Shown in pieces: positions 1-27,770 of a DNA stretch of 64,000 nt. The position numbers and the translations under genes are program-made. The first letter of the stretch is position 1, and every line of letters starts with the position of its first letter. The notes below the pieces were generated by a model that made no database searches, had not been told where the DNA came from, and was given only the letters and a program-made list of their open reading frames with translations. Source of the stretch: Herbiconiux oxytropis (GTDB taxonomy: Bacteria > Actinomycetota > Actinomycetes > Actinomycetales > Microbacteriaceae). The DNA lies in contig NZ_JANLCK010000009.1 of assembly GCF_024979315.1 (NCBI RefSeq), forward strand, positions 62,001 to 126,000. The letters are read 5' to 3'.

Positions 1-554
1 GCATCCGTGCCCGTGGCCAGCGGCACGGCACCCGAGGCCACGGTGGCCCCGGAACCGGCGCTCGAGCCGCCCGTGTTCTTCGACGGGTCCCAGGGGTTGC
101 GGCTCACGCCGGTGCGCGGCGAGATGCCGGTGCCCTTCCAGCCGAACTCCGGCGTGGTGGTGCGGCCGACGATCACGGCACCGGCCTCGAGCAGACGGCC
201 CGCGAACGGCGAGGAGGTCGTGGCGAGGGTGTCGGGACTCGTGAGCGAGCCCTTGCCGAGCGGCTCGCCCTCGATGTAGATGTTGTCCTTCGAGGCGATC
301 GGCACTCCGTGCAGGCGGCTCCGCACCCGCCCCTCGCGCACCTCCGCCTCGCGGGCCGCCGCATCGGCGAGCGCGCGCTCGGGCATGAGCGCGGCGTAGG
401 CGTTGATGCGCGGCTCGTGCCGGCCTGCGAGTTCCAGAGCGCACTCGGCGAGCTGCACGGGCGAGAGCTCGCCTCGGGCCACGCGCTCGCCGAGGCCGAG
501 GGCGCTCGAGGCCTGGTACTCCTCCACGCCGAGCGCGGTGTAGGTGCCGGTCAC
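1..554 (-). CDS. Amidase signature-family hydrolase (N-terminal part, runs off the window)
   Basis: Reading leftward from a GTG at 554 gives an open frame to the window edge, about 184 codons. It contains the amidase-signature core: GGSSAGSGATVASG (the Ser-rich catalytic loop) preceded by GRTTTPEFGWKG and by a VPIASKDN segment carrying the catalytic Lys. These enzymes hydrolyse amides by a Ser-cisSer-Lys triad. The GTG overlaps the TGA of the upstream aminotransferase (GTGA), so the two are translationally coupled. It is the last visible gene of the M20-LLM-M29-aminotransferase unit. The substrate is unknown; an amide released after ring cleavage would fit the setting. The C-terminal half is outside the window. 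Confidence 0.88.
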   Translation of the reverse strand, partial: MTGTYTALGVEEYQASSALGLGERVARGELSPVQLAECALELAGRHEPRINAYAALMPERALADAAAREAEVREGRVRSRLHGVPIASKDNIYIEGEPLGKGSLTSPDTLATTSSPFAGRLLEAGAVIVGRTTTPEFGWKGTGISPRTGVSRNPWDPSKNTGGSSAGSGATVASGAVPLATGTD

Positions 555-1729
555 GCCTCGACCGCCTCGGCGGGAGCCCCGACCGTCCCGATCGCCTCGA
601 CGGCGAAGGCCCCGGGTCCGCGCGCGGCCCGATCCGCCCACACCGCCCCGAACCTCTCGATCCACTCCGGCGGCACCGAGGTCGAGATCTTCACGAACCG
701 CTCACCGTAGAGCGGCGACTGGTAGGTGCCCGGCCGGATGAAGACGCCCTCCTCCAGCAGCGAGTCGCAGAGCGCATCCGCGGTCCAGCCGGAATCGCCG
801 AGGTCGACGGCCAGGAAGTTGCCCTGCGAGGGCGAGACCACCACGGTGCCGAGCCCGCTCTGCTCGACGATCTGCTCGACCCGCTCGAGGTTCGCCCGGT
901 TGACGGCGCGGAGGTTCTCGAGCCACGGCCCCTTCACTCGGAGCCCGGCGAGAGCCGCCCGCTGCCCCTGGATGCTCGCGCCGAGCGGATTCGCCGGGAT
1001 CGCGGTGATCGAGGCGAGCAGCGACGGCTCCGCCACGATCGCGCCGACCCGGAGACCCGCGAGCCCCAACCACTTCGAGAAGCTGTAGGTGCTGAAGGTG
1101 CCCTCGGGGTAGAGCTCGGCCGCCAGTGTGTGCTGGTCGGCGAAGTGCCGATAGGTGCAGTCGTGGATGATGGTCGAGCCGGTCTTGCGGGCGAGGTCGA
1201 CGATGGCCTGCAGTTCGTCCCTGGTGTAGCTCGCGCCGAGCGGATTGAGCGGGTCGATCAGGTAGATCAGCGACTGCGGGCGGATGACCTCGGCGATCTG
1301 CGCGGCCTGCATGAGGCGCGTGGGCTCGTCGTAGACCGGCAGCACCCGGATGGGCACGCCTGAGAGCGACACGAACCGCGCGGGCCACGGCCAGCCCGGA
1401 TCGCTCACGATAATCTGCGAGAGCGACGGGGCGAGGGTCGTGCAGATGTGGTGCAGCCCGCCGACGGCGCCGTCGGTGATCCAGGCGTCGAGAGGGAGGT
1501 CCGACTCGGGGCCGCGCAGGTCGTCGACGATCCGCTCACGCAGCTCCTGGAACCCGCCGGCGGGGGCGTAGACGTTGAACTCGTGCTTCGCGGTGCTCTG
1601 CTCGAGGGCCTCGACCACCTCGGGGGCCGGGGCCAGGTGCGTGGTGTTCTGGCCCATCCAGACGATGTCGTCGCGGTCGAGCAGCGCCTCGAACGAGGGC
1701 GCGCCGGAGCTCTTGGAGGGAACGGTCAT
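551..1729 (-). CDS. PLP-dependent aminotransferase, class I/II
   Basis: This 392-residue fold-type I aminotransferase has the full-length size of the family. Visible landmarks are NPLGASYTRDEL (the usual NP.G turn), IIHDCTYRHFA with the Asp and Tyr that contact the PLP ring, and YSFSKWLGLAGLR with the Schiff-base lysine. The start is ATG 1729 with AGGAAG about 6 bases upstream; the M29-like gene ends 15 bases before it. It should transfer an amino group between an amino acid and a keto acid or aldehyde. In this unit it could handle an amino-acid-like product of ring opening, which is inference. The exact substrate cannot be read from the sequence. Confidence 0.87.
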   Translation of the reverse strand: MTVPSKSSGAPSFEALLDRDDIVWMGQNTTHLAPAPEVVEALEQSTAKHEFNVYAPAGGFQELRERIVDDLRGPESDLPLDAWITDGAVGGLHHICTTLAPSLSQIIVSDPGWPWPARFVSLSGVPIRVLPVYDEPTRLMQAAQIAEVIRPQSLIYLIDPLNPLGASYTRDELQAIVDLARKTGSTIIHDCTYRHFADQHTLAAELYPEGTFSTYSFSKWLGLAGLRVGAIVAEPSLLASITAIPANPLGASIQGQRAALAGLRVKGPWLENLRAVNRANLERVEQIVEQSGLGTVVVSPSQGNFLAVDLGDSGWTADALCDSLLEEGVFIRPGTYQSPLYGERFVKISTSVPPEWIERFGAVWADRAARGPGAFAVEAIGTVGAPAEAVEA

Positions 1730-1744
1730 GGTGCTTCCTGTCTG

Positions 1745-2737
1745 TCAGTTCACGAGTTCGCCGGCCACGATGCGGGGCACGCCGTCGAGGAAGACGGTGG
1801 CGTCGCGCATGACGCAGTCGAGATGGGCGGGGGCGGCGACGGTGCCGCCGTAGGCGATGGAGTTGCCGAACGCGATGTGGGCGCTGCCCTTGGTGGACTC
1901 GGTCTCCATCGGCACACCGCAGACCGAGCCGTTGGGGTTCAGGCCCACGGCCACCTCGGCGAGATTGGTCATCCGCGGATCGCGGACCCGGCCCAGCATC
2001 TCCGTCAGGCGATCGGCGTCGGTGCCGGAGAGCGCGGTGCTGTCGAGGCCGATCAGGAGGCCGTCGCGGATCTCGAGGGCGACCGGGGCCACGACCGGCC
2101 CCTTGCCCATGAAGAGGAAGTCGCCGTCGATCACGACGACGCCGTTCGAGGATCCCTCCACGGGAGCGGTGCCCGACTCGATGTCCGGCGGTGCCATGTA
2201 GTCGCCGGGGTTCCGTGCCACGCCGGTGAGCGCGCGGCCCTTCCGGCCGTGCACGGAGCCGCGCAGATCCGTGCCACCCGGCGTCGTGATGCGGTACTCG
2301 GAGGCCGCCTCCCAGGCCCGGGCGAGGGCCACGGTGGTGCCGACGAGGGCGTCGAAGTCGACGTCGAGGGGCCCGCCGAGGCGGAAGGTGCCGGCCTCGA
2401 CCGCGGGCATCGCGAGATAGCGCCGGCCCGCGGCCGTGGCCTCCTGCCGTGCCCGGCTCGAGCCGATGAAGGCGCTCGTGAGCTCGATCCCCGCGTCGGC
2501 GGCCAGAAGGGCCTCGGCCACGGCGGCCGGCGGCTCGGTGCCGGGCACGACGAAGGTGGGCACCTCCACGATCACCGGGATCGCGCGCCGCTCCGTGAGA
2601 CCGGCGGCGAGCGCGGCGATCACCACGGCATCCGTGCCCGCATCCCGCAGCAGCACCACGCGCTCTCCCGCGGCCACGCCGAGGCAGGTGTCGAGCACCC
2701 GCGACACGGTCGCCTCGGGAAGGAGCGCGGCGGTCAC
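1745..2737 (-). CDS. M29/NicX-like metalloenzyme (aminopeptidase T or 2,5-dihydroxypyridine dioxygenase fold)
   Basis: This 330-residue protein carries the C-terminal metal-site pattern of the M29 aminopeptidase/NicX superfamily: NLAEVAVGLNP (Glu), KGSAHIAFGN (His) and PAHLDCVMRD (His and Asp). NicX members are iron dioxygenases that open 2,5-dihydroxypyridine; M29 members are peptidases. The sequence alone does not choose between them. The start is taken as GTG 2737, which overlaps the stop of the LLM gene (GTGA); an open frame continues upstream but lies wholly inside that gene. Its place among LLM, amidohydrolase and amidase genes favours a catabolic role over peptide turnover, which is inference. 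Confidence 0.65.
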   Translation of the reverse strand: MTAALLPEATVSRVLDTCLGVAAGERVVLLRDAGTDAVVIAALAAGLTERRAIPVIVEVPTFVVPGTEPPAAVAEALLAADAGIELTSAFIGSSRARQEATAAGRRYLAMPAVEAGTFRLGGPLDVDFDALVGTTVALARAWEAASEYRITTPGGTDLRGSVHGRKGRALTGVARNPGDYMAPPDIESGTAPVEGSSNGVVVIDGDFLFMGKGPVVAPVALEIRDGLLIGLDSTALSGTDADRLTEMLGRVRDPRMTNLAEVAVGLNPNGSVCGVPMETESTKGSAHIAFGNSIAYGGTVAAPAHLDCVMRDATVFLDGVPRIVAGELVN

Positions 2738-3729
2738 GGCCGGCTCACGATGTCGGCGTAGGCCTCGATGGTCGCGAAGCGGCTCTCGACCGTGCCACCG
2801 ATGGGGAACACCGTCATCGAGTCGATGCCGAGACCCTCGAGGGTGTCGATGTGCTCGCGCACGGCCTTCTCGCCGCCGGCGAGCGCCATGCGGTAGACGA
2901 ACTCGTCCGGCAGGAGCTTGGCGGCCTCCTCGGCCTCCTGGAACTCGCCGCCGGCGTAGAGCGCCCGCACCTTCTCGATGAGCTCGGGCGAGAGCCCGGC
3001 CAGCTCGCAGTACATCGGAGCCGTCTGCGGGAACCACGCGGCGATGGTGCGGGCCGAGGCGAGCGCGGCCTCCTCGTCATCCGAGATCTGACCGTAGGCG
3101 AACACCGAGATCTGCGGCCTGGCGCTCCGCCCCGCCATGTCGACGCCGCGGTCGATGTGCTCGAGTGCGTACTTCAGGCCGTCGGGGTGGAGGCCCGCGA
3201 GCAGGATGACCCCGTCGGCCACGCGTCCCGCGAGCTCGAGCGTCTTCGGCCCCGAGGCCGAGATGTAGACCGGGATGTCGGGCCGCTCCGGCGGGAAGCG
3301 CATGTGGGCGTCGTCGAGCTCGAAGCCGCGCGCCTTCCAGGTGACGCTCTCCCCCGTCCAGAGCCGGCGGGCCGCCTCGATCGAGTCCTCGAGCAGGGCG
3401 AGACGCGCGGGCTTGTAGCCGAGCGCCTCGAGCGGCCGGTCGCCCGCGCCGATGCCGTAGATGGCGCGGCCCTTCGAGATCTCGTCGATCGTCGACATCG
3501 CGACCGCACCGAGGGCCGGATGCCGCGTGACCGGGTTGGTCACGGCGGTGCCGAGCGTCATCCGCGTCGTGCGGAGCGCAGCGATCGTGAGGTACGAGTA
3601 CGAGTAGCGCGAGTGCAGCGAGGAATCGGTGAGCCAGAGCTCGTCGAGCCCCCATTCCTCGCTCTTCTGCACGATGTCTCCGAAGGTCTCGGGGTCGTAG
3701 GCCGGCTGGAGGGCGACGCCTGATCTCAT
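2734..3729 (-). CDS. LLM-class (F420-dependent type) oxidoreductase
   Basis: A 331-residue luciferase-like TIM-barrel protein. Landmarks are GLDELWLTDSS near the N-terminus, LGTAVTNPVTRHP, RAIYGIGAGDRPLEALGYKP and IPVYISASGPKTLELAGRVADG. The short length and the LGTAVTNP region resemble F420-dependent members (Mer/Fgd type) more than the roughly 440-residue NtaA-type FMN enzymes nearby. ATG 3729 is preceded by GGGAG and lies 5 bases after the M20 stop; the stop overlaps the next gene. It probably reduces or oxidises an intermediate of the pathway. The cofactor is assigned by family resemblance, not by a diagnostic residue. Confidence 0.85.
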   Translation of the reverse strand: MRSGVALQPAYDPETFGDIVQKSEEWGLDELWLTDSSLHSRYSYSYLTIAALRTTRMTLGTAVTNPVTRHPALGAVAMSTIDEISKGRAIYGIGAGDRPLEALGYKPARLALLEDSIEAARRLWTGESVTWKARGFELDDAHMRFPPERPDIPVYISASGPKTLELAGRVADGVILLAGLHPDGLKYALEHIDRGVDMAGRSARPQISVFAYGQISDDEEAALASARTIAAWFPQTAPMYCELAGLSPELIEKVRALYAGGEFQEAEEAAKLLPDEFVYRMALAGGEKAVREHIDTLEGLGIDSMTVFPIGGTVESRFATIEAYADIVSRP

Positions 3730-3734: not shown

Positions 3735-4973
3735 TCAGTCTCCCAGCAGGGCGTACGCGGCGAAGGCGGCATAGACCTTCGTGGCCTCCACGATGTCCTC
3801 GATCGAGAGGTGCTCGTCCGGGCAGTACACCGGCTCGCCACCGGGGCCGAAGATGATCGTGGGGATGCGGTCGCCGAAGCTCGCGGTGTCGCCGAGCCAG
3901 CCGGCCACCTGCAGCTCGGGCTCCGGGCTGCGCGTGCTCGAGCCGTCGGCGCGGGCCGCGCGCACGGCACGGATCATGAGCTCGGTCACCTCGGCCTCGG
4001 GCCGGGCGAGGTAGCCCGACTTCACGTCGGCCAGCACGACCTCGGCCTCGAAGCGGGGCTCGCGCTGCTTGGCGAGGGCGAGGCAGCGCTCGATCTCGTC
4101 GCGCACCTCCTCGAGCGTCACGCCCGGCTGCGGTCGGCAGTCGACGCGGATGACGCACTCGTCGGGGATCATGGACGGCCCTCCCGGCGGGAGCCCGCCG
4201 TAGACCCGGCCGGGCGCCATGTAGGTCTCAGGGCCGAACAGGCTCGTCACCCACTCCTCCAGCTGCGGCTCGAGCTTGGAGGCGTCGAGCTCGATGATGG
4301 CGTGCGCGGCGAGCATGTTCGCGTTGACGGCGAGCGGCTTGTGACAGGTGTGGGCCGAGATGCCCCGCACGATGATGTCGTAGTAGTAGCGGCCGCGGTG
4401 GCCGAGGAAGATCTCGTTGTCGCTCAGCTCGCCGAGCACGCAGTAGTCGGCGCCGTACTCCTCGAAGTACTTGATGGAGCCGAGCTGGTCGCCCATGTGG
4501 TCCGAGACCGCCGCCATGGCGAGGGTGCCCGAGACCGCGATGTCACCTGCGGCGGCCGCAGCGCGCACCGCCTCCATGGCGACGATCTGGCACACGAGTG
4601 CCGCCTTCATGTCCATGATGCCGTGGCCGTAGACGGCGCCGTCGATGATGTCGCCCGAGAAGGGCTCGGTGAGCTTCCAGCCGTGCGAGACCGGCTTGGT
4701 GTCCATGTGCCCGGTCATCACGACCGTCTTGCCGGGGCCGAAGTCGAGCTTGCCGATGGCGTTGGGTCGCTCCGGCAGCACGGGCTGGGCCCTCGCGTCG
4801 TCGAATCCCGAGCCGGCCATCACCTCGACCAGGAAGTCGGCGAGCGGGCCCTCCTCACCCAGGATGCTCGGGATGCGGCACACGTCCTGCACCAGCTGCA
4901 CGACGCGCTCGGTGTCGATGTGGCCCGCGACGATCTGCGCGACGTCCAGGTCGCTCTTGGCGAGGTCGGTCAT
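3735..4973 (-). CDS. M20-family (ArgE/DapE-like) amidohydrolase with atypical metal-site residues
   Basis: First gene of the left catabolic unit, 412 residues. The fold is clear from TGHMDTKP (His89, Asp91), GHGIMDMKAA (Asp121) and GELSDN (Glu182). The usual catalytic/metal Glu pair is replaced by Asp158-His159 (VSDHMGDQ), and the C-terminal AHxPDE motif reads VYCPDEHL, so the ligand His is missing. M20 enzymes remove acyl or formyl groups from amines; YlmB of the thiamine-salvage pathway, which deformylates formylaminopyrimidine, is one. The substitutions mean the same chemistry cannot be assumed. GAGGGGG precedes ATG 4973, and an AGATCT operator lies just upstream. Confidence 0.87.
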   Translation of the reverse strand: MTDLAKSDLDVAQIVAGHIDTERVVQLVQDVCRIPSILGEEGPLADFLVEVMAGSGFDDARAQPVLPERPNAIGKLDFGPGKTVVMTGHMDTKPVSHGWKLTEPFSGDIIDGAVYGHGIMDMKAALVCQIVAMEAVRAAAAAGDIAVSGTLAMAAVSDHMGDQLGSIKYFEEYGADYCVLGELSDNEIFLGHRGRYYYDIIVRGISAHTCHKPLAVNANMLAAHAIIELDASKLEPQLEEWVTSLFGPETYMAPGRVYGGLPPGGPSMIPDECVIRVDCRPQPGVTLEEVRDEIERCLALAKQREPRFEAEVVLADVKSGYLARPEAEVTELMIRAVRAARADGSSTRSPEPELQVAGWLGDTASFGDRIPTIIFGPGGEPVYCPDEHLSIEDIVEATKVYAAFAAYALLGD

Positions 4974-5057: not shown

Positions 5058-5073
5058 GTAAACAGCTTGTTAC
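5058..5073 (-). promoter_or_regulatory. Weak GlnR-like box upstream of the M20 unit
   Basis: On the minus strand the half-sites are GTAAC-N6-TTTAC. The first matches the GlnR half-site gTnAC; the second matches GaAAC at only two of five positions. It overlaps the last codons of the GntR gene. It is listed because better matches occur at three other promoters of the island. Confidence 0.25.
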
Positions 5074-5729
5074 GGGGCTGCGAGCTCGCGCACCGATCCG
5101 ATGTGGGCACGCATGACGCGCACCGCCTCGTCCGCGTCACCCGATCCGATCGAGGCCACGATCTCGCGGTGGAACTCGAGCGAGTCGCGGAAGCGCTCGA
5201 CGCTCGCACCCATCTTGCCGATCCGCTTGAGGTGCACGCTCAGGCGCTCGAAGACATCCTTCAGCAGTTTGTTGTCGAGGATCCCGAAGAGGATGTCATC
5301 GAAGGCGTCGAGTCCGGCGGCGGCGCGCTGCTCGTCCCCCGCCCGCAGTGCGGCCTCGGTCTCGGCGAGATTGGCCTCGAGGGCCCCGAGCACGCCGGGG
5401 TCGCGCTGAGCCGCGGCGCGGCGCACGCACTCGGTCTCGAGGATTCCGCGGGCGTCGAAGAGCTCCCGCACGTCGTCGGGGGTGTAGCGACGCACCCGGG
5501 CACCTCGATACGGCGCGATCTCGACGAGGCCCTCCCGCTCCAGGCGCACGAGCGCCTCGCGGATCGGGGTCTTGCTCACGCCGAACATCGCCGACAGGGC
5601 GACCTCTCGAAGCGACTCCCCCGGCGCGAACACGAGGTCGACGATGCGGTCGCGGATGCGCAGGTAGACGATGTCCTTCACCTGCACGGGCTCGAGGGAG
5701 TCCTTCGACATCACGGTGGTCACGCGCAC
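5070..5729 (-). CDS. GntR-family transcriptional regulator, FCD subfamily (regulator 1)
   Basis: A 219-residue FadR-type regulator. The N-terminal winged helix (about residues 15-80) contains FGVSKTPIREALVRLEREG; the C-terminal all-helical FCD domain keeps the metal/ligand residues (Asp in FDDILF and His in SVHLKR, EFHREI and RAHIGS). It is transcribed divergently from the aldehyde dehydrogenase, with operators B and C and a GlnR-like element between them, which suggests autoregulation. Its recognition helix is almost identical to that of regulator 2 (7446-8108), so both may read the same sites. FCD regulators usually release DNA on binding a carboxylate; the ligand here is unknown. Confidence 0.92.
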   Translation of the reverse strand: MRVTTVMSKDSLEPVQVKDIVYLRIRDRIVDLVFAPGESLREVALSAMFGVSKTPIREALVRLEREGLVEIAPYRGARVRRYTPDDVRELFDARGILETECVRRAAAQRDPGVLGALEANLAETEAALRAGDEQRAAAGLDAFDDILFGILDNKLLKDVFERLSVHLKRIGKMGASVERFRDSLEFHREIVASIGSGDADEAVRVMRAHIGSVRELAAP

Positions 5730-5866: not shown

Positions 5867-7375
5867 ATGTCGGCACCGAGCGACGTCATCCTTCCCGAGG
5901 TCCGCAGTTTCCTCGATCGCGAGCACGGCCTCATCATCGGCTCCGAGCAGCGCCCTGCGAGCGACGCCGGCCGCATCACCGTGCTCGACCCCGCCACCGG
6001 ATCGGTCCTCACCGAGGTCGCCTCCGGCACCGCCTCCGACGTCGACGCCGCGGTGGCCGCGGCCCGCGCGGCGCTGCCGGTCTGGAACGGCCTGGCCCCG
6101 GCCGAGCGCGCCAACCTGCTCTGGAAGCTCGGTGAGGAGATCGAGCGCCGGGCCGACGAGTTCGGCCAGCTCGAGACCCTCGACAACGGCAAGCCCACGG
6201 GCGAGTCGTCCGTGCTCGACGTGCCGCTGGCCGGATCGCTCTTCAAGTACTACGCCGGCTGGGCCACCAAGATCGAGGGCGCGACGATGCCGACCTCCTC
6301 GGGCATGTACTTCCACGTCTACACGCGCCGCGAGCCCGTGGGGGTCGTGGGCGCGATCATCCCCTGGAACTTCCCGCTGCTCATGTGCGGCTACAAGCTC
6401 GGCCCCGCCCTCGCCGCCGGCAACACCCTCGTGCTGAAGCCCGCCGAGCAGACCCCCCTCTCGGCCCTCAGGCTCGTGGAGCTCATGCTCGAGATCGGCT
6501 TCCCGCCCGGCGTCGTCAACGTCGTGACGGGCGACGGGCCGGGCGCCGGGGCGCCCCTCTCCCGCCACCTCGACGTCGACAAGATCACCTTCACCGGCGA
6601 GAACGCGACCGGGCGCAAGATCCTCGAGGCCTCGGGCGGCAACATGAAGCGCCTGTCGCTCGAGCTCGGCGGCAAGTCGCCCTCGCTCGTGTTCGGCGAC
6701 GCCGACCTCGAGAAGGCCATCGAGGGCACATTCGGCGCTGTGTACTTCAACCAGGGCCAGTGCTGCATCGCCGGCGCCCGGGTGTTCGTGCACGACTCGA
6801 TCTACGACCGCTTCGTGGAGGGCCTCGCCGCGCGGGTCGCCGGCGTGCAGCTCGGAAACGGCCTCGATCCCGCCACCACGATGGGGCCGCTCGTGAGCGA
6901 GGAGCAGCAGCAGCGCGTCGACTCGCTCATCGCCTCAGGTGTGGCCCAGGGCGCGACCGCCGTGGTGGGCGGATCGCCCGTCTCGTCGTCGGCGCAGGCC
7001 GAGGCGCTCTCGGGCGGCTACTTCGTGCAGCCCACCCTCTTCACCGACGTGAAGGCCGAGATGGACATCATGCGCAAGGAGATCTTCGGGCCCGTCGGCA
7101 TGGTCGGCCGCTTCTCGACCGAGGAGGAGGCCCTCGCGCTCGGCAACGACACGGCCTTCGGGCTCGCCTCCGGCGTGTGGACGAGGGACGTGGCGCGCGC
7201 CCACCGGGTGGCTGCGGGCCTTCAGGCCGGAGTCGTCTGGGTCAACACCTACGGCATGTTCGACGTCGCCATACCCTACGGCGGCTTCAAGGCCTCGGGT
7301 TACGGCAAGGAGCTCGGCGCGGAGGCGCTCGAGCCCTACCTGCAGACGAAGACGGTGTGGATCGACCTCGCCTGA
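5867..7375 (+). CDS. NAD(P)-dependent aldehyde dehydrogenase
   Basis: A complete 502-residue ALDH. The catalytic Cys (about residue 299) is in NQGQCCIAGAR, the general base Glu (about 265) in SLELGGKSP, and the NAD-binding segment includes IIPWNFPLLM and FTGENATGRKIL. ALDHs of this type oxidise aldehydes to carboxylates. The start ATG 5867 follows AGGAG at 8-12 bases and operator C. It is followed, after about 70 bases, by regulator 2 in the same direction. In the proposed pathway it would oxidise the aldehyde made by the GMC oxidase (23198-24574) or a semialdehyde from ring cleavage; this is inference. Confidence 0.95.
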   Translation: MSAPSDVILPEVRSFLDREHGLIIGSEQRPASDAGRITVLDPATGSVLTEVASGTASDVDAAVAAARAALPVWNGLAPAERANLLWKLGEEIERRADEFGQLETLDNGKPTGESSVLDVPLAGSLFKYYAGWATKIEGATMPTSSGMYFHVYTRREPVGVVGAIIPWNFPLLMCGYKLGPALAAGNTLVLKPAEQTPLSALRLVELMLEIGFPPGVVNVVTGDGPGAGAPLSRHLDVDKITFTGENATGRKILEASGGNMKRLSLELGGKSPSLVFGDADLEKAIEGTFGAVYFNQGQCCIAGARVFVHDSIYDRFVEGLAARVAGVQLGNGLDPATTMGPLVSEEQQQRVDSLIASGVAQGATAVVGGSPVSSSAQAEALSGGYFVQPTLFTDVKAEMDIMRKEIFGPVGMVGRFSTEEEALALGNDTAFGLASGVWTRDVARAHRVAAGLQAGVVWVNTYGMFDVAIPYGGFKASGYGKELGAEALEPYLQTKTVWIDLA

Positions 7376-7445
7376 CGGAGCGCCCGCGGCGGGCGGTGGC
7401 TGTGTCAGGATGATGCCACCAGTCCTTCGAGCCGACGGGAGCAGA

Positions 7446-9055: not shown

Positions 9056-9056
9056 G

Positions 9057-11797: not shown

Positions 11798-11811
11798 CTC
11801 GCGATCCCCGC

Positions 11812-12816: not shown

Positions 12817-12846
12817 GGAGGAGCTCCTTCGTCGGTGGCACATGGT

Positions 12847-12871
12847 TCAGATATTAGATCTGAGATATAAC
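12847..12871. promoter_or_regulatory. AGATCT-type operator D upstream of the BMP importer
   Basis: GATATTAGATC followed by TGAGATATAA forms a near-symmetric site centred on AGATCT at 12856-12861, 31-55 bases upstream of the binding-protein start. It belongs to the same motif family as the other island operators. Confidence 0.6.
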
Positions 12872-12930
12872 CGAGACGATAATGCCGTCCTGTACCGGCG
12901 ACAAGGGATGAATCGTGATGTTCACGGGCC

Positions 12931-12946: not shown

Positions 12947-12964
12947 AATGCAGCCCTAGCGTTT

Positions 12965-12984: not shown

Positions 12985-13001
12985 CGACACCAGGAGAGAT
13001 C

Positions 13002-19063: not shown

Positions 19064-19064
19064 C

Positions 19065-20617: not shown

Positions 20618-21667
20618 TCAGTCGGTCAGGTACTCGTTGGTGTAGAAGCTCGACCAGTCCGGCGCCTCGGTGAGGGTGTTGCCGTCGACATCGGCCAGGA
20701 GTCCCGCCTCGAGGTAGAACTCGCCGAGCCCTGCCCACTGCTCGTCGGTCATGAGGCCGAACTCGCCGTTCTCGTCGAGCATGAAGTCGCTCGAGAGCAG
20801 GGTCTGGCTCTCGGTCACGAGCTCGGCCTCGGTGAGCACGTCGGGGTTCGCGGCCATCAGGATCTCGGCGCTGCCCTCGGGGTCGGCGATGGCGTCCTCG
20901 TAGCCCTTCGCGAGCGCCTGGGTGAAGGCCTTCGTGGTCTCGGCGTTCTCGCCCATCCAGGTCTTGTTGCCGAGCACGAGGAGGCCGTAGTTGTCCGGGA
21001 AGCCGTAGTCGGTGAAGTGGAAGTACTTCATGGGCGTGCCGTTGAGCTCGGCCTCGATGCCCTCCCAGGTCTCGAACGGGATGGTGAAGTCGACATCGCC
21101 GGAGTAGAGCGCCTCGTAGGCGCTCGTGCCGAGGGTGACGTTCTCGAAGTCGCCCTTTCCGCCGTCATCCTTGATGACGGCCTGCAGGGTGGGCACCTCG
21201 GAGGGGCTGCCGAAACCTGCGTAGGTGAGGCCGTCGAGGTCGGCGGGGCTCTGGATGGTGTCATCGTCGGCCCGCACGCCGATGGCCGTGACCCAGGTCT
21301 GGATGGGGGCCATGATCGCCTGCACGTCGGCACCGGCGGCCATCGAGAAGGTCGAGACGTCCTGGAAGCCGATGCCGAAGTCGGCGGCCCCCGCGTCGAT
21401 CAGGGTCTCGGGGTAGGAGCCGTTGTAGGGCAGGATCTCGACATCGAGGCCCGCTTCTTCGAAGTAGCCCTTCTCGATCGCCACGTAGAGGCCGGTGTGG
21501 TTGGTGTTGGGGGTCCAGTCCAGGGCGAACGTCACCGGGGTGAGGTCGCCAGAGGCACCGGCGGAGCCGGTGGACTCGGCTGCCGAGCCGCCGCTCGAGC
21601 AGGCGGCGAGGAGGCCGGCGGTGGCCAGGACGGCCGCTCCGGTGGCGAAGTTCCGCTTCTTCATCAT
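20618..21667 (-). CDS. THI5/NMT1-like substrate-binding lipoprotein (ThiY-like)
   Basis: A 349-residue secreted binding protein with lipobox LLAAC and lipidated Cys23. It opens with LDWTPNTNHTGLYVA followed by GYFEEAGLDVEILPY, the hallmark of THI5/NMT1 and ThiY proteins that bind HMP-type pyrimidines. It is followed 19 bases later by TenA. A second ATG lies one codon downstream. The binding family is clear; whether the ligand is HMP, formylaminopyrimidine or an analogue is not shown by sequence. Confidence 0.9.
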   Translation of the reverse strand: MMKKRNFATGAAVLATAGLLAACSSGGSAAESTGSAGASGDLTPVTFALDWTPNTNHTGLYVAIEKGYFEEAGLDVEILPYNGSYPETLIDAGAADFGIGFQDVSTFSMAAGADVQAIMAPIQTWVTAIGVRADDDTIQSPADLDGLTYAGFGSPSEVPTLQAVIKDDGGKGDFENVTLGTSAYEALYSGDVDFTIPFETWEGIEAELNGTPMKYFHFTDYGFPDNYGLLVLGNKTWMGENAETTKAFTQALAKGYEDAIADPEGSAEILMAANPDVLTEAELVTESQTLLSSDFMLDENGEFGLMTDEQWAGLGEFYLEAGLLADVDGNTLTEAPDWSSFYTNEYLTD

Positions 21668-21739: not shown

Positions 21740-23065
21740 TCAGGCGGGCCGGTGCACGACTTCCATGCGCTCGACCGTGCGACGGAAGGCCTCGTTGGTC
21801 TTCCGCACGACCTCGGACTCGTCGACGGTCGTGAGCTCGCGGCCGCGCATGAGCACGCGGCCGTTCACGATCGTGGTGTCGACCATGCCGCCGTTCGCGG
21901 CGAACACGAGGTGGCTCGTCATGTGCACGGGGGTGTCGCGGAGCATCGGGGTGAACTCCACCGAGTTCGTCTCGACGAGGATCACGTCGGCCTTCGCGCC
22001 GACGGCCAGCTGCCCCGTCTCGTGGCCGAGCGCCTTCGCTCCGTTCCGGGTCGCCATCCGCAGCACGTCGGCGGCGGGCATGAGCGAGGAGTCCTGCCGC
22101 TGGGCACGATGCATGAGCGAGGAGTACTTCATGACCTCGAACATGTCGGCGGAGTTGTTGCACTCGACCGCGTCGTGGCCGAGCCCCACGTTGATCCCGG
22201 CCGCGAGCATCTCGGGCACCCGGGCGATGCCGTTGCCGAGCTTGGCGTTCGAGGAGGGGTTGTGCGAGATGTGGGTCCCGGTCTCGGCCATCATCCGGAT
22301 CTCGTCGTCGTTCAGGTGCACGCAGTGCGCGGCCACGACGTCGGGCCCGAGCAGTCCCACCTCGTAGGCGAGCTCGGTCGGCCGCTTGCCGAAGCGCTCG
22401 AGGCTGTTCTCGACCTCCGACATCGACTCGTTGAGGTGGATGTGGATGCCGATGCCGAGCTCGTCGGCGAGTCCGCGGGTCTCCCGGAGCAGCTCGGGCG
22501 AGGCCAGCGGCAGCCACTCGATGCCGAAGCGCACCTCGATCAGGCCGTTCGCGGATCCGTGGCTGCGGTGGAACGCCTCGACGTTGTCCTGCAGGGTGTC
22601 GAGCCGGTACTCGTCGAGCGCGATGTCGTTCGAGAGCACCACGCGGATGCCGATCTGCTCGGCCGCCACGGCGAGCGCGTCGAGCTTGCGGTACATGTCG
22701 TTGACGGTCGTGACGCCGGCCTTGATGGACTCCGTGTAACTCGCCATCGCGGCCCAGTAGGCGGAGTCGAAGTCGAGGGCCCGGATGAGCGGGTACCAGC
22801 ACTCGTCGAGGTACTCCCAGAGCGGCAGGTGATCGTTGTAGCCCTTGCCGAGCGCGGTGTGGAAGTGCAGGTCGATGAGGCCGGGCATCACGATCTTGTC
22901 GGTCGCATCGATGACGTCGTCGCCCTCGGCGGCGGAGGGCGCCTCGGCCGCCGGCCCGATCCAGACGATGCGGTCGCCGTCGATCACGACGGTGCCGTCT
23001 TCGAGGTAGGTGCCCTCGTCGTCGAGAGTCAGGACCATGCCGTGGGTGATCAGGATGCGGGTCAT
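21740..23065 (-). CDS. Amidohydrolase-superfamily deaminase (Atz/Trz, cytosine/SAH-deaminase type)
   Basis: A 441-residue metal-dependent hydrolase. Metal-site motifs are DLHFHT (His67, His69), IHIHLNES, VAAHCVHL and GLGHDAVECNN with the catalytic Asp. Most relatives have GTDG at the last motif; here it is GHD. The family hydrolyses amino or halide groups from aromatic N-rings. As first gene of the unit with a pyrimidine importer, TenA and a RutA-like enzyme, it could convert the 4-amino pyrimidine to the 4-oxo form that a RutA enzyme needs. That step is inference. Operator F is about 30 bases upstream. Confidence 0.9.
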   Translation of the reverse strand: MTRILITHGMVLTLDDEGTYLEDGTVVIDGDRIVWIGPAAEAPSAAEGDDVIDATDKIVMPGLIDLHFHTALGKGYNDHLPLWEYLDECWYPLIRALDFDSAYWAAMASYTESIKAGVTTVNDMYRKLDALAVAAEQIGIRVVLSNDIALDEYRLDTLQDNVEAFHRSHGSANGLIEVRFGIEWLPLASPELLRETRGLADELGIGIHIHLNESMSEVENSLERFGKRPTELAYEVGLLGPDVVAAHCVHLNDDEIRMMAETGTHISHNPSSNAKLGNGIARVPEMLAAGINVGLGHDAVECNNSADMFEVMKYSSLMHRAQRQDSSLMPAADVLRMATRNGAKALGHETGQLAVGAKADVILVETNSVEFTPMLRDTPVHMTSHLVFAANGGMVDTTIVNGRVLMRGRELTTVDESEVVRKTNEAFRRTVERMEVVHRPA

Positions 23066-23095: not shown

Positions 23096-23117
23096 TCAGA
23101 TCTAAGATCTTATTTAG
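23096..23117. promoter_or_regulatory. AGATCT-type operator F upstream of the central unit
   Basis: Two AGATCT cores (23098-23103 and 23105-23110) sit in TTCAGATCTAAGATCTTATT, 31-52 bases upstream of the deaminase start. It marks a separate promoter for the deaminase-to-SDR unit. Confidence 0.55.
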
Positions 23118-23173
23118 GAGGCTAAGGGTGCCGAGTGGCCGTCACAAGCGGATTCGATCAGTGTTCACACGCG

Positions 23174-23189
23174 GTAACACGCCCGAAAC
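23174..23189 (+). promoter_or_regulatory. GlnR-like box upstream of the central unit
   Basis: GTAAC-ACGCCC-GAAAC exactly matches gTnAC-N6-GaAAC. GTTCA lies six bases upstream, as at the 12.93-kb box. It lies 57-78 bases from operator F and about 110-125 bases from the deaminase start. Regulation by a GlnR-type protein is inferred. Confidence 0.5.
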
Positions 23190-23197: not shown

Positions 23198-24574
23198 TCA
23201 GAGCCCTTCGTCGGCCGCGACGATGCCGCCGCCCAACCAGCCGAGGGCCATCGTGACGAGGTTCGGGCCGGCATCGTGGATGCGCGGGAACACCGACGCG
23301 TCGATGATCTTGAGCCCCTCGGTGCCGAGCACGTTCAGGCGTCGATCGACCACCCGGTCGATGCCGCAGGTGCCCACGGGGTGGTTGTAGGTCTCGACCC
23401 GTCGCCGGAGTTCCGGCACGAGGTCGGTCGTCTTCCACCACGCGTCGTCCGGCACGGTGACGATGCCCTCGTCGGCCATCGCGTCGATCAGGTCGGCCGT
23501 CTTCCGCACGGCGATCGCCATCCGCTCCGCATCCGAGTCGGTGGCGAGGTGGCCGAGGCGGATAAGACCCCGGTCGTCGTCGCCGCGGGTGATGCTCCCT
23601 CGGGACTCGGGCTGCATGAGCGCCACCGAGACGCTGTAGCCGGCGCGGGGCGCCGTGCGGTCGTAGAGCCAGGTGGAGAAGGGGAAGACCTGGAACTCGT
23701 CGGCGGGGTCGTCGGCCACTCCGGCGCGGAGGAGCGATCCGCTGACCGGGCGGGCGAAGACGTCGGCCTCGTCGCGGGCGAGCACGTTCATCATGAGCCA
23801 GGGGTGGTCCTGAAGGCCCTGGCCGATGCCCGGCAGATCGACGCCGGATCGCCAGAGCATTTCCGGGGTGCCGTAGGCGCCGCCGGCGACGATGACGAGA
23901 TCCGCGGCGATGGTCTCGACCCCGCCGGGGCCCTCGATCTCCACGCCGACGGCACGCGCCCCCTCCATCAGCACGCGGCGCACGAACGAGCGGTCGCGGA
24001 GCGTCACCCGCCCGCGCACGAGCGGCGCCACGGCGGCGAGCGCTCCCCAGCGCCCCTCGTCGACCCGGTTGGTGGGCCAGGGCCCCACGCCCTGGGTTCC
24101 CGGGGCGTTGTGGTCGGCGCAGTCCGGGTGCCCGGCGGCCCGGGAGGCCGCGGCGAACGCCTCGTCGAGCGGGCTCTGGCTCAGCCGGGTCACCCGCACA
24201 GGGCCGCTGTCGCCGTGGTACGGCCGGTCGCCGAACTGCTCGTCGGTCTCGATGGCGTTGAGGCCCGGCAGCAGGTCGTCCCACTGCCAGCCCTCGCCCC
24301 ACGACTCGAAGCCGCTCGGCTGTCCGCGCGACCCGGCGGCGGCATTGACGCTCGAGCCCCCGCCGAGCACCCTGCCGCGCACGAGGTGACGGCCCGAGTC
24401 GAGATCGGTGTAGTCCCAGTCGGCGTCGGGGAAGGCGTGGTCGTGCAGGTAGTTGTGGGGCACCGGATCGCCGGGGTCTGCCCCCGCCTCGATCAGCGTG
24501 ACGTCGGCCAGGTCGGCGAGGCGATGGGCGGCGAGGAGTCCTCCGTTGCCGCCTCCGGCGATGACGATCCTCAT
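23198..24574 (-). CDS. GMC-family FAD-dependent alcohol oxidase/dehydrogenase
   Basis: A 458-residue GMC oxidoreductase, at the short end for the family. It has the FAD dinucleotide loop at residues 7-12 (GGGNGG) with the ribose-binding Glu in LIEAG, the GMC signature GRVLGGGSSVNAAAGSRG, and the C-terminal YNHPVGTCG with the catalytic His plus GLKIIDASVFP. ATG 24574 overlaps the stop of the amidohydrolase gene. GMC enzymes oxidise primary alcohols; pyridoxine 4-oxidase is one that oxidises a heteroaryl hydroxymethyl group. Oxidation of the 5-hydroxymethyl of HMP would be a parallel reaction, which is inference. Confidence 0.9.
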   Translation of the reverse strand: MRIVIAGGGNGGLLAAHRLADLADVTLIEAGADPGDPVPHNYLHDHAFPDADWDYTDLDSGRHLVRGRVLGGGSSVNAAAGSRGQPSGFESWGEGWQWDDLLPGLNAIETDEQFGDRPYHGDSGPVRVTRLSQSPLDEAFAAASRAAGHPDCADHNAPGTQGVGPWPTNRVDEGRWGALAAVAPLVRGRVTLRDRSFVRRVLMEGARAVGVEIEGPGGVETIAADLVIVAGGAYGTPEMLWRSGVDLPGIGQGLQDHPWLMMNVLARDEADVFARPVSGSLLRAGVADDPADEFQVFPFSTWLYDRTAPRAGYSVSVALMQPESRGSITRGDDDRGLIRLGHLATDSDAERMAIAVRKTADLIDAMADEGIVTVPDDAWWKTTDLVPELRRRVETYNHPVGTCGIDRVVDRRLNVLGTEGLKIIDASVFPRIHDAGPNLVTMALGWLGGGIVAADEGL

Positions 24575-25608
24575 GCCGCTCCCGCCGTCTCGTCGGAGAG
24601 GCCGAGGAGGGCCGCGAAGTTGCCGCCCATCACCCCGTCGAGCTTGGACTGCGGGATGGGCGGGAGGCCGAGCACCGCCGCCTCCTCGTTGACCGTGAGG
24701 AGCTTCTCGCGGAGGCCGACCGGGTCGTAGAGGAAGCCCGGGAAGTCGGTCCCGAACATGATCTTCTCGAGGGGCACGAAGAAGGGCTCTGCCCGGTGCA
24801 GGAAGAGGAAGAGGTCTCGCCGGGTGACGGTGGCGATGTGGTAGCTGATCTCGGTGTAGAAATTCGGATGCTTCGTGAGCATGAACATCGCCTCCTCGAT
24901 CCAGGGGATGCCGCAATGCGCGATGATCACCTTCAGGTCGCGGAAGTTGCGGCCGATGTCGTCCAGGAGTGCCGGGCGGCCGAGCTCCATCTTCGCGTCG
25001 ATCCGGGTGGAGCCGGCCTGGTGGATCATCACGGGGATGCCGAGGTCGCGCGCCGCGGCGAGCACCGGGAAGGCCAGGTCGCGGTCGACCGGCGACCAGT
25101 GCTGGTACATCGGATAGAGCTTCACACCCTTCAGGCCGTCCTCCTGCACGGCGCGGGCGAGCTCGTCGACGGCTGCCTTCACGCCCCGGTAGGCCGGGTT
25201 CACCGACGCGAAGCCGATGATCCTCTCGGGTTCGGCGCGTACGCATCCGGCGATGTACTCGTTGCAGCGCTCGGGATGCTGCTCGCCCGTGACGTCGGTC
25301 TGGCCGAGCACGTCGACCGTGCCCATCAGCCGGCCCTCGAGGTACTGCGGGCTCACGGCGAGCGCCACGATCTTGTCGAAGCCCGGATGCGCGGCGACGG
25401 TCTCGTGCGGACCGACGACCCCGAAGCCGTCCTTGCCCTCTGCCGCCTCGATCTCCTCCCACTCATGGTCGACCGGGCAGCGGTGGCTCGGCAGCTTGCC
25501 CTCGGCACGGTAGATGGTGAGCGAGCCCTCGCGGCCGTAGCGCTTGGTGAAGGCCGCATCCGTGCCCATCGAGAGGATGTGGGTGTGGGCGTCGATCTGG
25601 AGTGTCAT
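24571..25608 (-). CDS. Amidohydrolase_2 (ACMSD / isoorotate-decarboxylase type) metal enzyme
   Basis: A 345-residue TIM-barrel protein of the amidohydrolase_2 group. Visible metal residues: DAHTHI at the N-terminus, VMIHQAGS, IIAHCGIPW and FGTDFPG with the catalytic Asp. The group contains non-oxidative decarboxylases (ACMSD, gamma-resorcylate and isoorotate decarboxylases) and some lactonases. Between an alcohol oxidase and a TenA gene, decarboxylation of a pyrimidine-5-carboxylate is chemically reasonable, since isoorotate decarboxylase does this on uracil. Specific activity is not proven. ATG 25608 has AGGAA upstream and lies 8 bases after the TenA stop. Confidence 0.85.
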   Translation of the reverse strand: MTLQIDAHTHILSMGTDAAFTKRYGREGSLTIYRAEGKLPSHRCPVDHEWEEIEAAEGKDGFGVVGPHETVAAHPGFDKIVALAVSPQYLEGRLMGTVDVLGQTDVTGEQHPERCNEYIAGCVRAEPERIIGFASVNPAYRGVKAAVDELARAVQEDGLKGVKLYPMYQHWSPVDRDLAFPVLAAARDLGIPVMIHQAGSTRIDAKMELGRPALLDDIGRNFRDLKVIIAHCGIPWIEEAMFMLTKHPNFYTEISYHIATVTRRDLFLFLHRAEPFFVPLEKIMFGTDFPGFLYDPVGLREKLLTVNEEAAVLGLPPIPQSKLDGVMGGNFAALLGLSDETAGAA

Positions 25609-25616: not shown

Positions 25617-26333
25617 CTAGCTCAGGTCCTGCCAGGTGGTCCCGGTGAACCCCTGGTCCCAGAACTGCCGCTCGAGGCGGCAGCCGGTGATGAAGATGTC
25701 GGCGGCGCGGACTCGCGCGGCCTCCGGCATGGCGGCGAGTTCCCGGTCGAACGAGTCGCGCAGCGTCGCGACGACGACGGCGTAGGCGTCGCTCGCGAAG
25801 AACTCGATCCAGCCGCGATAGGCCGGATGCTCCACGGCGCCGTCGATGAGGCCCGTCGCGATCTCGCCGTAGCTCCAGGCGCACGGCAGCAGGGCGGCGG
25901 CGATGTCGTTCGCGTCGCCCGTGGCGGCGATCGAGAGCAGCCACGAGGTGTAGGCCACGGTGGCGGGGGCCCTCACTCCTTCGCTCACCGGACCCTCCCC
26001 CGCGAGCGCGACCGCGTCGGCGTGCATCCGCTCGTTCTGCGGGAGCTCGACGGCGACGATGTTGACGAGCGCGTCGGTGTACTCACCGAGACCCCGCAGG
26101 TCCGGTGAACGGGTGGCGCCCATGGCGAGCATGCGCGCGTAGTCGGGGAGGTAGAGGAGGTTCTGCGCGAGGTAGAAGCGGAAGCGCTCGGGCGGCAGCG
26201 TGCCGTCGGCGAGCCCACGGGGAAACGGATGCTCGATGAGCGCGTTCCAGAGCGGGCCGACGGAGTCCCGGAGCTCGGCCGTGGTGGCGGGCGCCGGTGC
26301 CGATGTGTGCGCCGGTGCGGGTGTCGCGCTCAT
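25617..26333 (-). CDS. TenA-family protein, divergent paralogue (Asp-to-Asn at the D44 position)
   Basis: A 238-residue TenA protein with an Ala/Pro/Thr-rich N-terminal tail of about 18 residues. Cys151 (ALLPCAWSYGEIA) and Glu221 (RLERQFW) are kept. The Asp that binds the pyrimidine amino group in B. subtilis TenA is Asn58 here (YLAQNLLYL). That change suggests a substrate without the usual amino group, such as an oxo-pyrimidine, or a changed activity. ATG 26333 overlaps the stop of the upstream monooxygenase. It is distinct from the canonical TenA at 19960-20598. Confidence 0.86.
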   Translation of the reverse strand: MSATPAPAHTSAPAPATTAELRDSVGPLWNALIEHPFPRGLADGTLPPERFRFYLAQNLLYLPDYARMLAMGATRSPDLRGLGEYTDALVNIVAVELPQNERMHADAVALAGEGPVSEGVRAPATVAYTSWLLSIAATGDANDIAAALLPCAWSYGEIATGLIDGAVEHPAYRGWIEFFASDAYAVVVATLRDSFDRELAAMPEAARVRAADIFITGCRLERQFWDQGFTGTTWQDLS

Positions 26334-27679
26334 GCGGTCACCGCCTCGCGCGTCTGGCCGAAGTGGCCGCGCAGTGTCGCTCCCTCGTAGGCCGCGCGGT
26401 AGACACCCCGTTCCTGCAGTTCGGGAACCACGAGGTCGACGAACTCCTCGATGCCCTCCGGCAGCGTGGAGGCGTTGACGTTGAAGCCGTCGGCCGCGCG
26501 GCCCTCGAACCAGCGCACGAGCTCGTCGGCGATCGAGGAGGGCGTGCCCACGGTGGTGAAGTGCCCTCCGCCGGCCGAGATGCGCTCGAGCATCGTGCCC
26601 ACGTCGACCTTCCGGCCGTCGTCGTCGACCGAGAGCGTCTGCATCATGACGTAGCGGCCCTTGGGGCCAGGGAACTCCTCGAGCGCGGGCAGGTCGGGCA
26701 TGGTGTCGTTCCGTTCGAGGCGTGAGCAGTCCATGCCGATGTAGCCGCCGAGCACGGCGAGCTGGCGGTCGAGCGACTTGAGCGAGTCGAGGTGGCGCTT
26801 CTTGTCGCGGGCCTCCGCCATGGTCTCGCCGATCACCGTGACGACACCGGGGAGCACCACGATCTCGTGCTCGGCCCGGCCGTGGTCGCGGGTGCGGCGC
26901 TTGATGTCGTCGTAGTAGTCGTGGGCGTCCTCGATCGTGGAGCCGATCCCGTAGATGGCCTCGGCGTAGCGCGCCGCGAGATCGCGGCCCTCGGGCGACG
27001 CCCCGGCCTGCACCATCACCGGACGGCCCTGGGCGCTCGCCGGGATGTTGAGGGGGCCGCGCACGTCGAAGGCCGCACCGTGGTGCTCGATCGGGCGCAG
27101 GCGGGTGGGATCGAGGAAGTCGCCTCCCTCCTTGTCCATCAGCACCGCCTCGCGGGGATAGCTCCCCCAGAGCCCGAGCATCACCTCGGCGAACTCCTTC
27201 GCCCGGGCGTAGCGCTCGGCCGGCGGCAGGAGCGACGGCAGGCCGTGCAGCGGAGCCTCGGCGTCGCTCTGCGAGGTCACGAGGTTCACGCCGGCCCGGC
27301 CACCGCTCAGCAGGTCGAGCGAGGCGAGGGACCTGGCGGCGTTGAAGGGGTCGTGGAACGAGGCGCTGACCGTGCCGATGAGACCGATCCTCGAGGTCTT
27401 GGCCGCGATGTAGGAGAGCAGGGTGAGGGGCTCGAACATCGCAGCGGCGCTGTTGTGCAGACCGCCGAAGTACGACAGGTGCGAATCGGCGAGGAAGACG
27501 GCGTCGAACAGCCCCCGCTCGCAGGTCACCGCGAGGTCGGCGAAGGTGTCCGGATCGAAGGCGCTCTCGACGCTCGTGCCCTCGCGCTGCCAGGCCGCTG
27601 GGTGGTGCCCGTACAGCCGCATGAACAGGTTCAGGTGCAGCAGGCGCCCGTCACCGGGCCCGTCGTGTTCGCTCGCCAT
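26330..27679 (-). CDS. NtaA/SnaA/DszA-family flavin-dependent monooxygenase (second copy)
   Basis: A 449-residue LLM-fold monooxygenase, first gene of its unit. Signatures are SLDLLSGGRAGVNLVTS, GPLNIPASAQGRPVMVQAG, and SPEGRDLAARYAEAIYGIG. It is clearly different in sequence from the copy at 13002, so the two probably act on different substrates, for example a sulfur heterocycle and a nitrogen heterocycle. It needs reduced FMN from a partner reductase that is not in the window. ATG 27679 has only a weak GGTGG upstream. Operator G and a four-part GlnR-like box lie just upstream. Confidence 0.9.
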   Translation of the reverse strand: MASEHDGPGDGRLLHLNLFMRLYGHHPAAWQREGTSVESAFDPDTFADLAVTCERGLFDAVFLADSHLSYFGGLHNSAAAMFEPLTLLSYIAAKTSRIGLIGTVSASFHDPFNAARSLASLDLLSGGRAGVNLVTSQSDAEAPLHGLPSLLPPAERYARAKEFAEVMLGLWGSYPREAVLMDKEGGDFLDPTRLRPIEHHGAAFDVRGPLNIPASAQGRPVMVQAGASPEGRDLAARYAEAIYGIGSTIEDAHDYYDDIKRRTRDHGRAEHEIVVLPGVVTVIGETMAEARDKKRHLDSLKSLDRQLAVLGGYIGMDCSRLERNDTMPDLPALEEFPGPKGRYVMMQTLSVDDDGRKVDVGTMLERISAGGGHFTTVGTPSSIADELVRWFEGRAADGFNVNASTLPEGIEEFVDLVVPELQERGVYRAAYEGATLRGHFGQTREAVTA

Positions 27680-27705
27680 CAGGCCACCGTCCGAAAGATC
27701 GATCC

Positions 27706-27731
27706 TCTTAAGATCTAGGATCTAATATCTC
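27706..27731. promoter_or_regulatory. AGATCT-type operator G upstream of the second monooxygenase unit
   Basis: On the minus strand GATATTAGATC is followed by CTAGATCTTAAG; the AGATCT core is at 27711-27716. It lies 27-52 bases upstream of the monooxygenase start and matches operators C, D and E over GATATYAGATC. Confidence 0.6.
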
Positions 27732-27732
27732 G

Positions 27733-27770
27733 ATTACGAGGACGTCACGCCGATGTTTCGGGTGTGTGTA
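27733..27770 (-). promoter_or_regulatory. Four-half-site GlnR-like box
   Basis: On the minus strand the half-sites are TACAC-N6-GAAAC-N6-GTGAC-N6-GTAAT. The two central half-sites match gTnAC/GaAAC perfectly, the outer two at three of five positions, and all three spacers are six bases. It abuts operator G and the Nudix stop codon. This is the fullest GlnR-like site of the island. Confidence 0.5.

Follow-up and report, generated by a model that had tools for sequence, protein, structure and literature searches.

A candidate nitrogen-responsive catabolic cluster for the aminopyrimidine half of thiamine in Herbiconiux oxytropis

The importer ThiXYZ and the TenA proteins are textbook parts of thiamine salvage, and in Bacillus they act with YlmB in the salvage of the thiamine pyrimidine. 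As to the breakdown of vitamins, a passage of a 2025 paper names only B6, NAD and B2 (riboflavin) as having well-characterised catabolic pathways (PMC12746152). The present analysis concerns a gene block at positions 1-27770 of a 64,000-nucleotide stretch of Herbiconiux oxytropis DNA (the window; positions 62001-126000 on a 150-kb contig of a draft genome of 4.13 Mb, 98% complete). The block probably forms a catabolic regulon that responds to nitrogen and serves to break down the aminopyrimidine half of thiamine, with formylaminopyrimidine (FAMP), aminomethyl-pyrimidine (AmMP) or hydroxymethylpyrimidine (HMP) as the substrate, and not a salvage operon. The observations that carry this reading are the gene content, the conserved motifs, the co-conservation of the genes, the lack of thiC, thiD and thiE in the host, the lack of a nearby thiamine pyrophosphate (TPP) riboswitch, the catalytic residues of TenA and the metal ligands of an Amidohydro_2 protein (AH2).

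A ThiY-type importer, TenA_C proteins and an M20 hydrolase are common to the cluster and to the Bacillus salvage system. In contrast to the latter, the cluster has no TPP riboswitch, its host has no ThiC, ThiE or ThiD, and it adds oxidases, a deaminase, an ACMSD-type enzyme and ring-opening candidates. With the B2 catabolic clusters (RcaE in Microbacterium, the lum genes in Nocardioides simplex) it has in common actinobacterial vitamin catabolism, oxidation of an alcohol to an acid and hydrolysis of a pyrimidine ring; however, the substrate and the enzyme set are different, and the text of that paper does not mention TenA (PMC12746152). Among the titles and abstract beginnings listed by searches of one open-licence library for thiamine catabolism, none describes this set of genes or such a pathway, which is no proof of absence in print. 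The route looks to lie outside the well-characterised vitamin degradation pathways.

Genes were called with a custom gene caller, and gene classes were assigned by Pfam, NCBIfam or PDB searches. Every gene class that a sequence-only reading of this DNA had named was recovered by these searches within positions 1-27770 (Table 1). Beyond that list, the block holds a Mer-like luciferase-like (LLM) protein, a NicX/M29-like protein, an M20 hydrolase, an aminotransferase, two GntR/FCD regulators, a Bmp-type ABC importer and a short-chain dehydrogenase/reductase (SDR). For comparison, 34 named AH2 loci were obtained by scanning the genomes of 84,980 species with sequence patterns, an approach that reaches close relatives only. 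The 36 loci counted below are these 34 plus G167 and G107; L014, on the same contig as L021, is uncounted, and L007 is the flank of the window itself. Many loci are short, and absences are thus lower bounds that hold within the DNA fetched only. Within the order, AH2 is encoded by 4 of 248 genomes, that of the host being one of them; judged by AH2, the nearest named relatives belong to Herbiconiux (96 and 95%). By record title the loci are mostly actinobacterial, with L033 being a Dormiibacterota bin. AH2 is accompanied by an Amidohydro_1 protein at 32 of the 36 loci, by TenA at 24, by aldehyde dehydrogenase (ALDH) at 16 and by an NMT1-type binding protein at 14; LLM3 (7), the RutA-like protein (5) and LLM2 (2) are scarcer. 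Among the 20 loci with 15 kb or more of DNA, TenA is present at 15, LLM1 at 11 and the RutA-like protein at 4. At L045 and L046, the genes for AH2, TenA, ALO and ALDH form an unbroken same-strand run.

The importer and the TenA proteins point to a thiamine-pyrimidine-type substrate, as had been proposed. In PDB searches, the best match of the binding protein ThiY is 4nmy (1e-48), with the FAMP-binding protein 3ix1 in second place (E 8.5e-31). ThiY also carries the motif DW-PN--H, as do 3ix1 and THI5; its W, N and H are kept in all 15 ThiY/c33 proteins compared, the c33 proteins of L045 and L046 reading EW for DW. The host genome holds just two TenA proteins, both in this block; TenA1 exceeds the thiaminase II cut-off, as does the distant TenA of L043 (136.6). 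The active-site cysteine of TenA_C proteins is given as Cys135 in B. subtilis in a passage of PMC10277260. Among 24 aligned TenA sequences, the catalytic Cys (Cys151) and Glu are invariant. A further position carries Asp in TenA2 and Asn in TenA1 and 13 others (14 of 24); we take it to be Asp44 of B. subtilis. The Asn would suit a recruitment of TenA and ThiY to another N-heterocycle, such as a pyridine, a pterin or flavin fragment, or an agrochemical pyrimidine or triazine. The same explanation is favoured by the deaminase, which has triazine hydrolases and 8-oxoguanine deaminase among its relatives, by the breadth of the NtaA-type enzymes and by the presence of a NicX relative. In contrast, two Cys/Glu-complete TenA_C proteins and a ThiY with the DW-PN--H motif jointly indicate the thiamine pyrimidine, and two of the iron ligands of NicX are replaced in its relative. 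Recruitment to another heterocycle is thus rather unlikely.

The genetic background of the host bears on the question of catabolism or salvage. The host genome gives no match for ThiC and none for ThiE (PF02581), and its best ThiD match is of the ribokinase type, at 40.8 bits against a cut-off of 204.95. All three proteins are lacking in 7 of the 14 cluster hosts tested, namely H. oxytropis, H. moechotypicola, N. mangrovi, D. salsinemoris, Microbacterium sp. 18062, N. caldifontis (with one ThiE match under the cut-off) and N. soli; for this count, an order-wide base rate exists for ThiC only, and genome completeness figures for 3 of the 14 hosts only. In host G258, the ThiD-type match is split in two pieces and falls under the ThiD cut-off. 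As the host is without ThiC, ThiE and ThiD, TenA and ThiXYZ therefore cannot feed thiamine synthesis via known enzymes, and the host is apparently unable to build vitamin B1 from its parts. A scan of the window and of 31 named loci (the 34 other than L040, L046 and L048) gave no TPP riboswitch. The sole TPP riboswitch of the host genome (G000 C1:118752-118859) lies directly upstream of a YkoE-like gene, behind which stand genes of the ABC and CbiQ types; these are a predicted energy-coupling factor (ECF) transporter, so that thiamine uptake has its own TPP-type control. If the cluster served salvage instead, ThiXYZ and TenA would supply HMP for thiamine synthesis and the other enzymes would be unrelated neighbours. 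The textbook role of both systems and the occurrence of ThiE and ThiD in 7 of the 14 hosts suit such an arrangement; however, the lack of all three proteins in the host and six others, the position of the only riboswitch ahead of the ECF transporter, and the co-conservation of the neighbouring genes under common operators argue against it. For this host, salvage is considered very improbable, and the catabolic role already assigned to the block is upheld.

The oxidation of the 5-hydroxymethyl group to a carboxyl group, part of the route first suggested, is reflected in the comparison of loci. The alcohol-oxidising enzyme is swapped among three unrelated families: GMC at 10 of the 36 loci, zinc-dependent alcohol dehydrogenase (Zn-ADH) at 17 (counted without an identity floor; 12 in a stricter cluster) and ALO at 5. 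At least one such enzyme is found at 29 loci, among them every one of the 16 that have ALDH. This swap supports the steps from CH2OH to COOH. In the Amidohydro_1 enzyme, the HxH, H, H and D ligands and a Glu are kept in 30 of 30 or 31 of 31 of the rows that reach them; deaminases and triazine hydrolases make up its relatives in the PDB. AH2 has an HxH, H, H, D metal/catalytic pattern, with H8 and H10 present in 26 of 26 rows reaching them and H196, H231 and D288 in 29 of 29. This pattern is common to ACMSD and the 5-carboxyvanillate and gamma-resorcylate decarboxylases, which the AH2 profile matches at E 2.4e-8 to 8e-4. Unlike for these enzymes, the best match of AH2 is the uncharacterised 3irs, and the profile also hits 4-oxalomesaconate hydratase, ACMSD and several aromatic-acid decarboxylases; all four families near the top of the search beyond 3irs are ACMSD-superfamily hydratases/decarboxylases. 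Isoorotate decarboxylase is not among the matches listed for the profile. The profile and the ligands are consistent with a decarboxylase, which is not proof of one.

The opening of the ring is where the locus departs from the route first drawn. RutA is the closest NCBIfam model of the RutA-like LLM and links the cluster to the Rut pathway; however, the protein scores 226.5 bits against a cut-off of 498.3 for the RutA equivalog TIGR03612. It is present at 5 of the 36 loci and was not seen, for instance, in the 21 kb fetched for L019. RutA as a universal ring opener was rejected on this distribution, and ring opening by the RutA-like protein finds no support in the form proposed. The lower module with the wider spread consists of the Mer-like LLM1 (15 of 36 loci), the M20 hydrolase (13) and the NicX/M29-like protein (10). 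The exact sequence of oxidation, decarboxylation, deamination and RutA-type N3-C4 opening has in its favour that all the enzymes named are in the window and that, in this host, the importer operon has the RutA-like gene at its end. It is distinctly unlikely in view of the low score, the scarcity of the RutA-like protein and the wider occurrence of the three other proteins. The preferred reading is the catabolic regulon, with ring activation proposed mainly for a different flavoenzyme. LLM1 gives its best score with F420-dependent Mer models (195 bits against a cut-off of 276). The host also has a CofH-like match of 290.2 against a cut-off of 374.1 in a 995-aa frame, which suggests F420 synthesis, the same search matching 11 of 14 control genomes. 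For the M20 hydrolase, a YlmB-like deformylase role may be guessed.

The protein encoded at 1745-2737 has NicX, the 2,5-dihydroxypyridine dioxygenase, as its only PDB relative at E < 0.1. The Fe(II) ligands of NicX are listed as His265, Ser302, His318 and Asp320 in a passage of PMC7910607. In all nine sequences compared, these positions read E, A, H and D, so that His265 is replaced by Glu and Ser302 by Ala. A NicX-type dioxygenase as the ring opener was first favoured and then dropped; because two of the iron ligands are not kept, this kind of enzyme is unsupported and a hydrolase is likelier. The set of Glu, Glu, His, His and Asp in this protein resembles that which we assume for the M29 aminopeptidases. 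Five clusters with AH2 and TenA in Acidimicrobiia-type bins (L031, L032, L035, L037 and L039) carry an ATP-dependent hydantoinase A/B (for example L037:3873-7530) and several Zn-ADHs in place of LLM1, possibly a different solution to ring opening.

Two kinds of promoter motif exceed chance in the window, in agreement with the shared motifs noted before. The palindrome AGATCTNAGATNT, of the type AGATCT-N-AGATCT, has 11 matches with at most one mismatch against 0.25 expected, all of them intergenic, and none of 100 shuffles reaches 11. They fall in four regions: between GntR1 and ALDH, between the Bmp importer and LLM2, upstream of the deaminase and upstream of LLM3. The whole host genome holds 17 matches, 11 of them in the block and the remaining six at five places. 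The deaminase gene is preceded by the palindrome in 8 of 10 clusters compared, and LLM3 in 5 of 8. Collectively, the gene block acts as one regulon, and the GntR/FCD protein or proteins probably sense the substrate through the palindrome, as far as the arrangement of sites can tell. In the G167 cluster, a second deaminase-like gene (L008:10574-11728) lies next to the amidase gene and is preceded, 30 bases upstream, by a palindrome site of its own. The Bmp-type importer carries both promoter motifs in this host; as a core part of the pathway it was rejected, being conserved at 1 of 36 loci through an ATPase-only match.

The second motif resembles the actinobacterial GlnR box, with the consensus gTnAc-n6-GaAAc according to a passage of PMC10704036. 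The pattern GTNAC-N6-GAAAC has two exact matches in the window against 0.13 expected, with a third box in b-a order at 27744; all three sit at cluster promoters. An exact box lies 121-149 bases upstream of the deaminase in 7 of 10 clusters, the related ones and the present one taken together, and L020 has a box there with one mismatch. In this comparison set, 13 of 14 exact boxes are at cluster promoters. The host genome has 18 boxes in a-b order against 3 for a reversed-pattern control, including one 134 bases upstream of glnA and one 87 bases upstream of the ammonium transporter gene amtB. These findings support the nitrogen regulation foreseen for the block, and GlnR probably signals nitrogen shortage to the cluster via the predicted boxes. 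They also bear on whether the genes detoxify thiamine antivitamins (bacimethrin, toxopyrimidine) and do not serve feeding. The antivitamins are substrate-like and the hosts are thiamine-dependent; nevertheless, the GlnR boxes, a high-affinity-type importer and several ammonia-yielding enzymes suit nutrient use better, and detoxification appears scarcely probable.

A number of observations weigh against the reading as a catabolic, nitrogen-controlled regulon. Neither the palindrome nor an exact GlnR box was found at L012 or L014 in the comparison of 10 clusters. Six of the 18 boxes in the host genome lie inside predicted genes, and none of eight other box-adjoining proteins tested is a classical nitrogen gene product. 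Across 434 kb of the distant loci just 4 boxes turn up, including one that precedes AH2 in L037 by 239 bases; because these loci are nearly without boxes, the predicted nitrogen control is a trait of window-type clusters. TenA is not universal, 12 of the 36 loci being without it in the DNA fetched, five of them longer than 15 kb. The seven hosts outside the list above have ThiE and ThiD-type matches, four of them also ThiC, and salvage is open there. ThiC occurs in just 19 of 119 genomes of the order, so that its lack is ordinary; its absence was for this reason rejected as evidence of an association with the cluster. The host has ribokinase-family relatives of ThiD, in principle able to phosphorylate HMP, and the superfamily of AH2 includes hydratases too. 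Finally, a family III CoA-transferase is found at ten loci, a methylmalonyl-CoA-mutase-type protein at six, and at ten a small protein of the glyoxalase fold that comes close to methylmalonyl-CoA epimerase yet scores under its cut-off. The mutase-type gene stands beside the AH2 cluster at L022, L023, L026, L038, L044 and L047, all six of which have the CoA-transferase. These genes hint at a C4 acid as the end product, in contrast to the C3 skeleton proposed for the decarboxylating scheme.

From gene content and conservation we infer the substrate, every reaction, the reaction order and the pairing of regulators with sites as follows. ThiY-X-Z would import the pyrimidine, and TenA, perhaps following deformylation by the M20 hydrolase, would free HMP and ammonia. 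The GMC oxidase and then ALDH would convert the 5-CH2OH to a 5-COOH group, the Amidohydro_1 enzyme would strip the 4-amino group as ammonia, and AH2 would strip the carboxyl group as CO2. Activation of the ring would fall to a luciferase-like flavoenzyme, namely LLM1, perhaps joined in this host by LLM3, LLM2 and the RutA-like protein. The M20, NicX/M29-like and amidase enzymes would then hydrolyse the ring and, together with the aminotransferase, finish the opened product. The GntR/FCD protein or proteins would read the substrate at the palindrome, and GlnR would report nitrogen shortage. Catabolism, nitrogen control, import with TenA chemistry and oxidation stand from the sequence-only reading, and its RutA-like ring opening does not. 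Of that route, import, hydrolysis by TenA and oxidation of the alcohol to the acid, with AH2 acting next, have the best support, and the RutA-type opening has the weakest. A more far-reaching version is conceivable but tentative. The cluster would then be the missing bacterial pathway for the B1 pyrimidine, run by thiamine-auxotrophic actinobacteria that cannot reuse HMP and that would take up breakdown products of thiamine when nitrogen is short, through a 5-carboxylate, decarboxylation and deamination, with opening by an F420-type LLM, M20 and M29-like proteins replacing RutA, and with distant versions draining via a CoA-transferase and a B12-dependent mutase.

Table 1. Genes and predicted regulatory sites of the block, in window coordinates
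Feature	Position	Strand	Basis or remark
Amidase (PF01425)	3..665	-	E 1.3e-37; truncated at window start, frame runs on into flank L007 (19118-19990-)
Class I/II aminotransferase	551..1729	-	NF004870, 351.6 bits vs cut-off 351
NicX/M29-like metalloprotein, probably a hydrolase	1745..2737	-	PDB 7cn3, E 8.4e-8; profile 1.4e-11
LLM1, luciferase-like, nearest F420-dependent Mer models	2734..3729	-	all models below cut-off
M20-family hydrolase (ArgE/DapE type)	3735..4973	-	Pfam/NCBIfam
GntR/FCD regulator 1 (GntR1)	5070..5729	-	domain match
Two AGATCT-type palindromes between GntR1 and ALDH	5733-5745, 5833-5845	.	pattern scan
Aldehyde dehydrogenase (ALDH)	5867..7375	+	E 3.1e-172
GntR/FCD regulator 2 (GntR2)	7410..8108	+	domain match
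Bmp/PnrA-type ABC importer (two permeases, ATPase, binding protein)	8129..12843	-	domain matches
Overlapping palindromes (12849-12868) and GlnR-type box (12931-12946)	12849..12946	.	pattern scan
LLM2, NtaA/DmoA-type monooxygenase	12963..14312	+	TIGR03860, 417 bits vs cut-off 279.7
SDR-like protein, pathway membership uncertain	15685..17085	-	domain match
RutA-like LLM	17175..18254	-	under RutA cut-off
ThiZ-type ABC ATPase	18251..19075	-	Pfam
ThiX-type ABC permease	19065..19958	-	Pfam
TenA2 (TenA_C; Cys and Glu retained)	19960..20598	-	Pfam, alignment
ThiY-type binding protein (NMT1/THI5)	20618..21667	-	Pfam NMT1, E 1.1e-56
Amidohydro_1 deaminase-type enzyme (N-ethylammeline chlorohydrolase/adenosine-deaminase-like subgroup)	21740..23065	-	
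Palindrome (23098-23110) and GlnR-type box (23174-23189)	23098..23189	.	pattern scan
GMC oxidoreductase	23198..24574	-	domain match
AH2, Amidohydro_2 of ACMSD superfamily, candidate decarboxylase	24571..25608	-	
TenA1 (thiaminase II model TIGR04306)	25617..26333	-	139.9 bits vs cut-off 130
LLM3, NtaA/DmoA-type monooxygenase	26330..27679	-	TIGR03860, 460.2 bits vs cut-off 279.7
Palindrome (27711-27723) and reverse-order GlnR box (27744-27759)	27711..27759	.	pattern scan

By coordinate arithmetic only, the amidase is a single 479-codon frame spanning the window edge. The SDR-like protein has a CxxC...CxxC stretch at its N-terminus, before the dehydrogenase domain, and the frame at 14381-15667+ (428 aa, with coding-like composition) has no Pfam match, so that nothing supports its assignment to TetR. 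Just beyond the cluster lies a gene for a ClpC/ClpB-type ATPase (31365-33887), and three consecutive tRNA genes are found at 53386-53735 of the window.

A concrete candidate for the pyrimidine of B1 that is both regulated and comparatively conserved would make the gap in the catabolism of this vitamin directly testable. If the proposed reading is true, TenA and ThiXYZ would work here in the direction opposite to salvage, and the presence of TenA and ThiY in a genome or metagenome survey would be no proof of thiamine salvage. The cluster would also constitute a biological sink for the FAMP, AmMP and HMP present in the environment, a pool that other organisms rely on.

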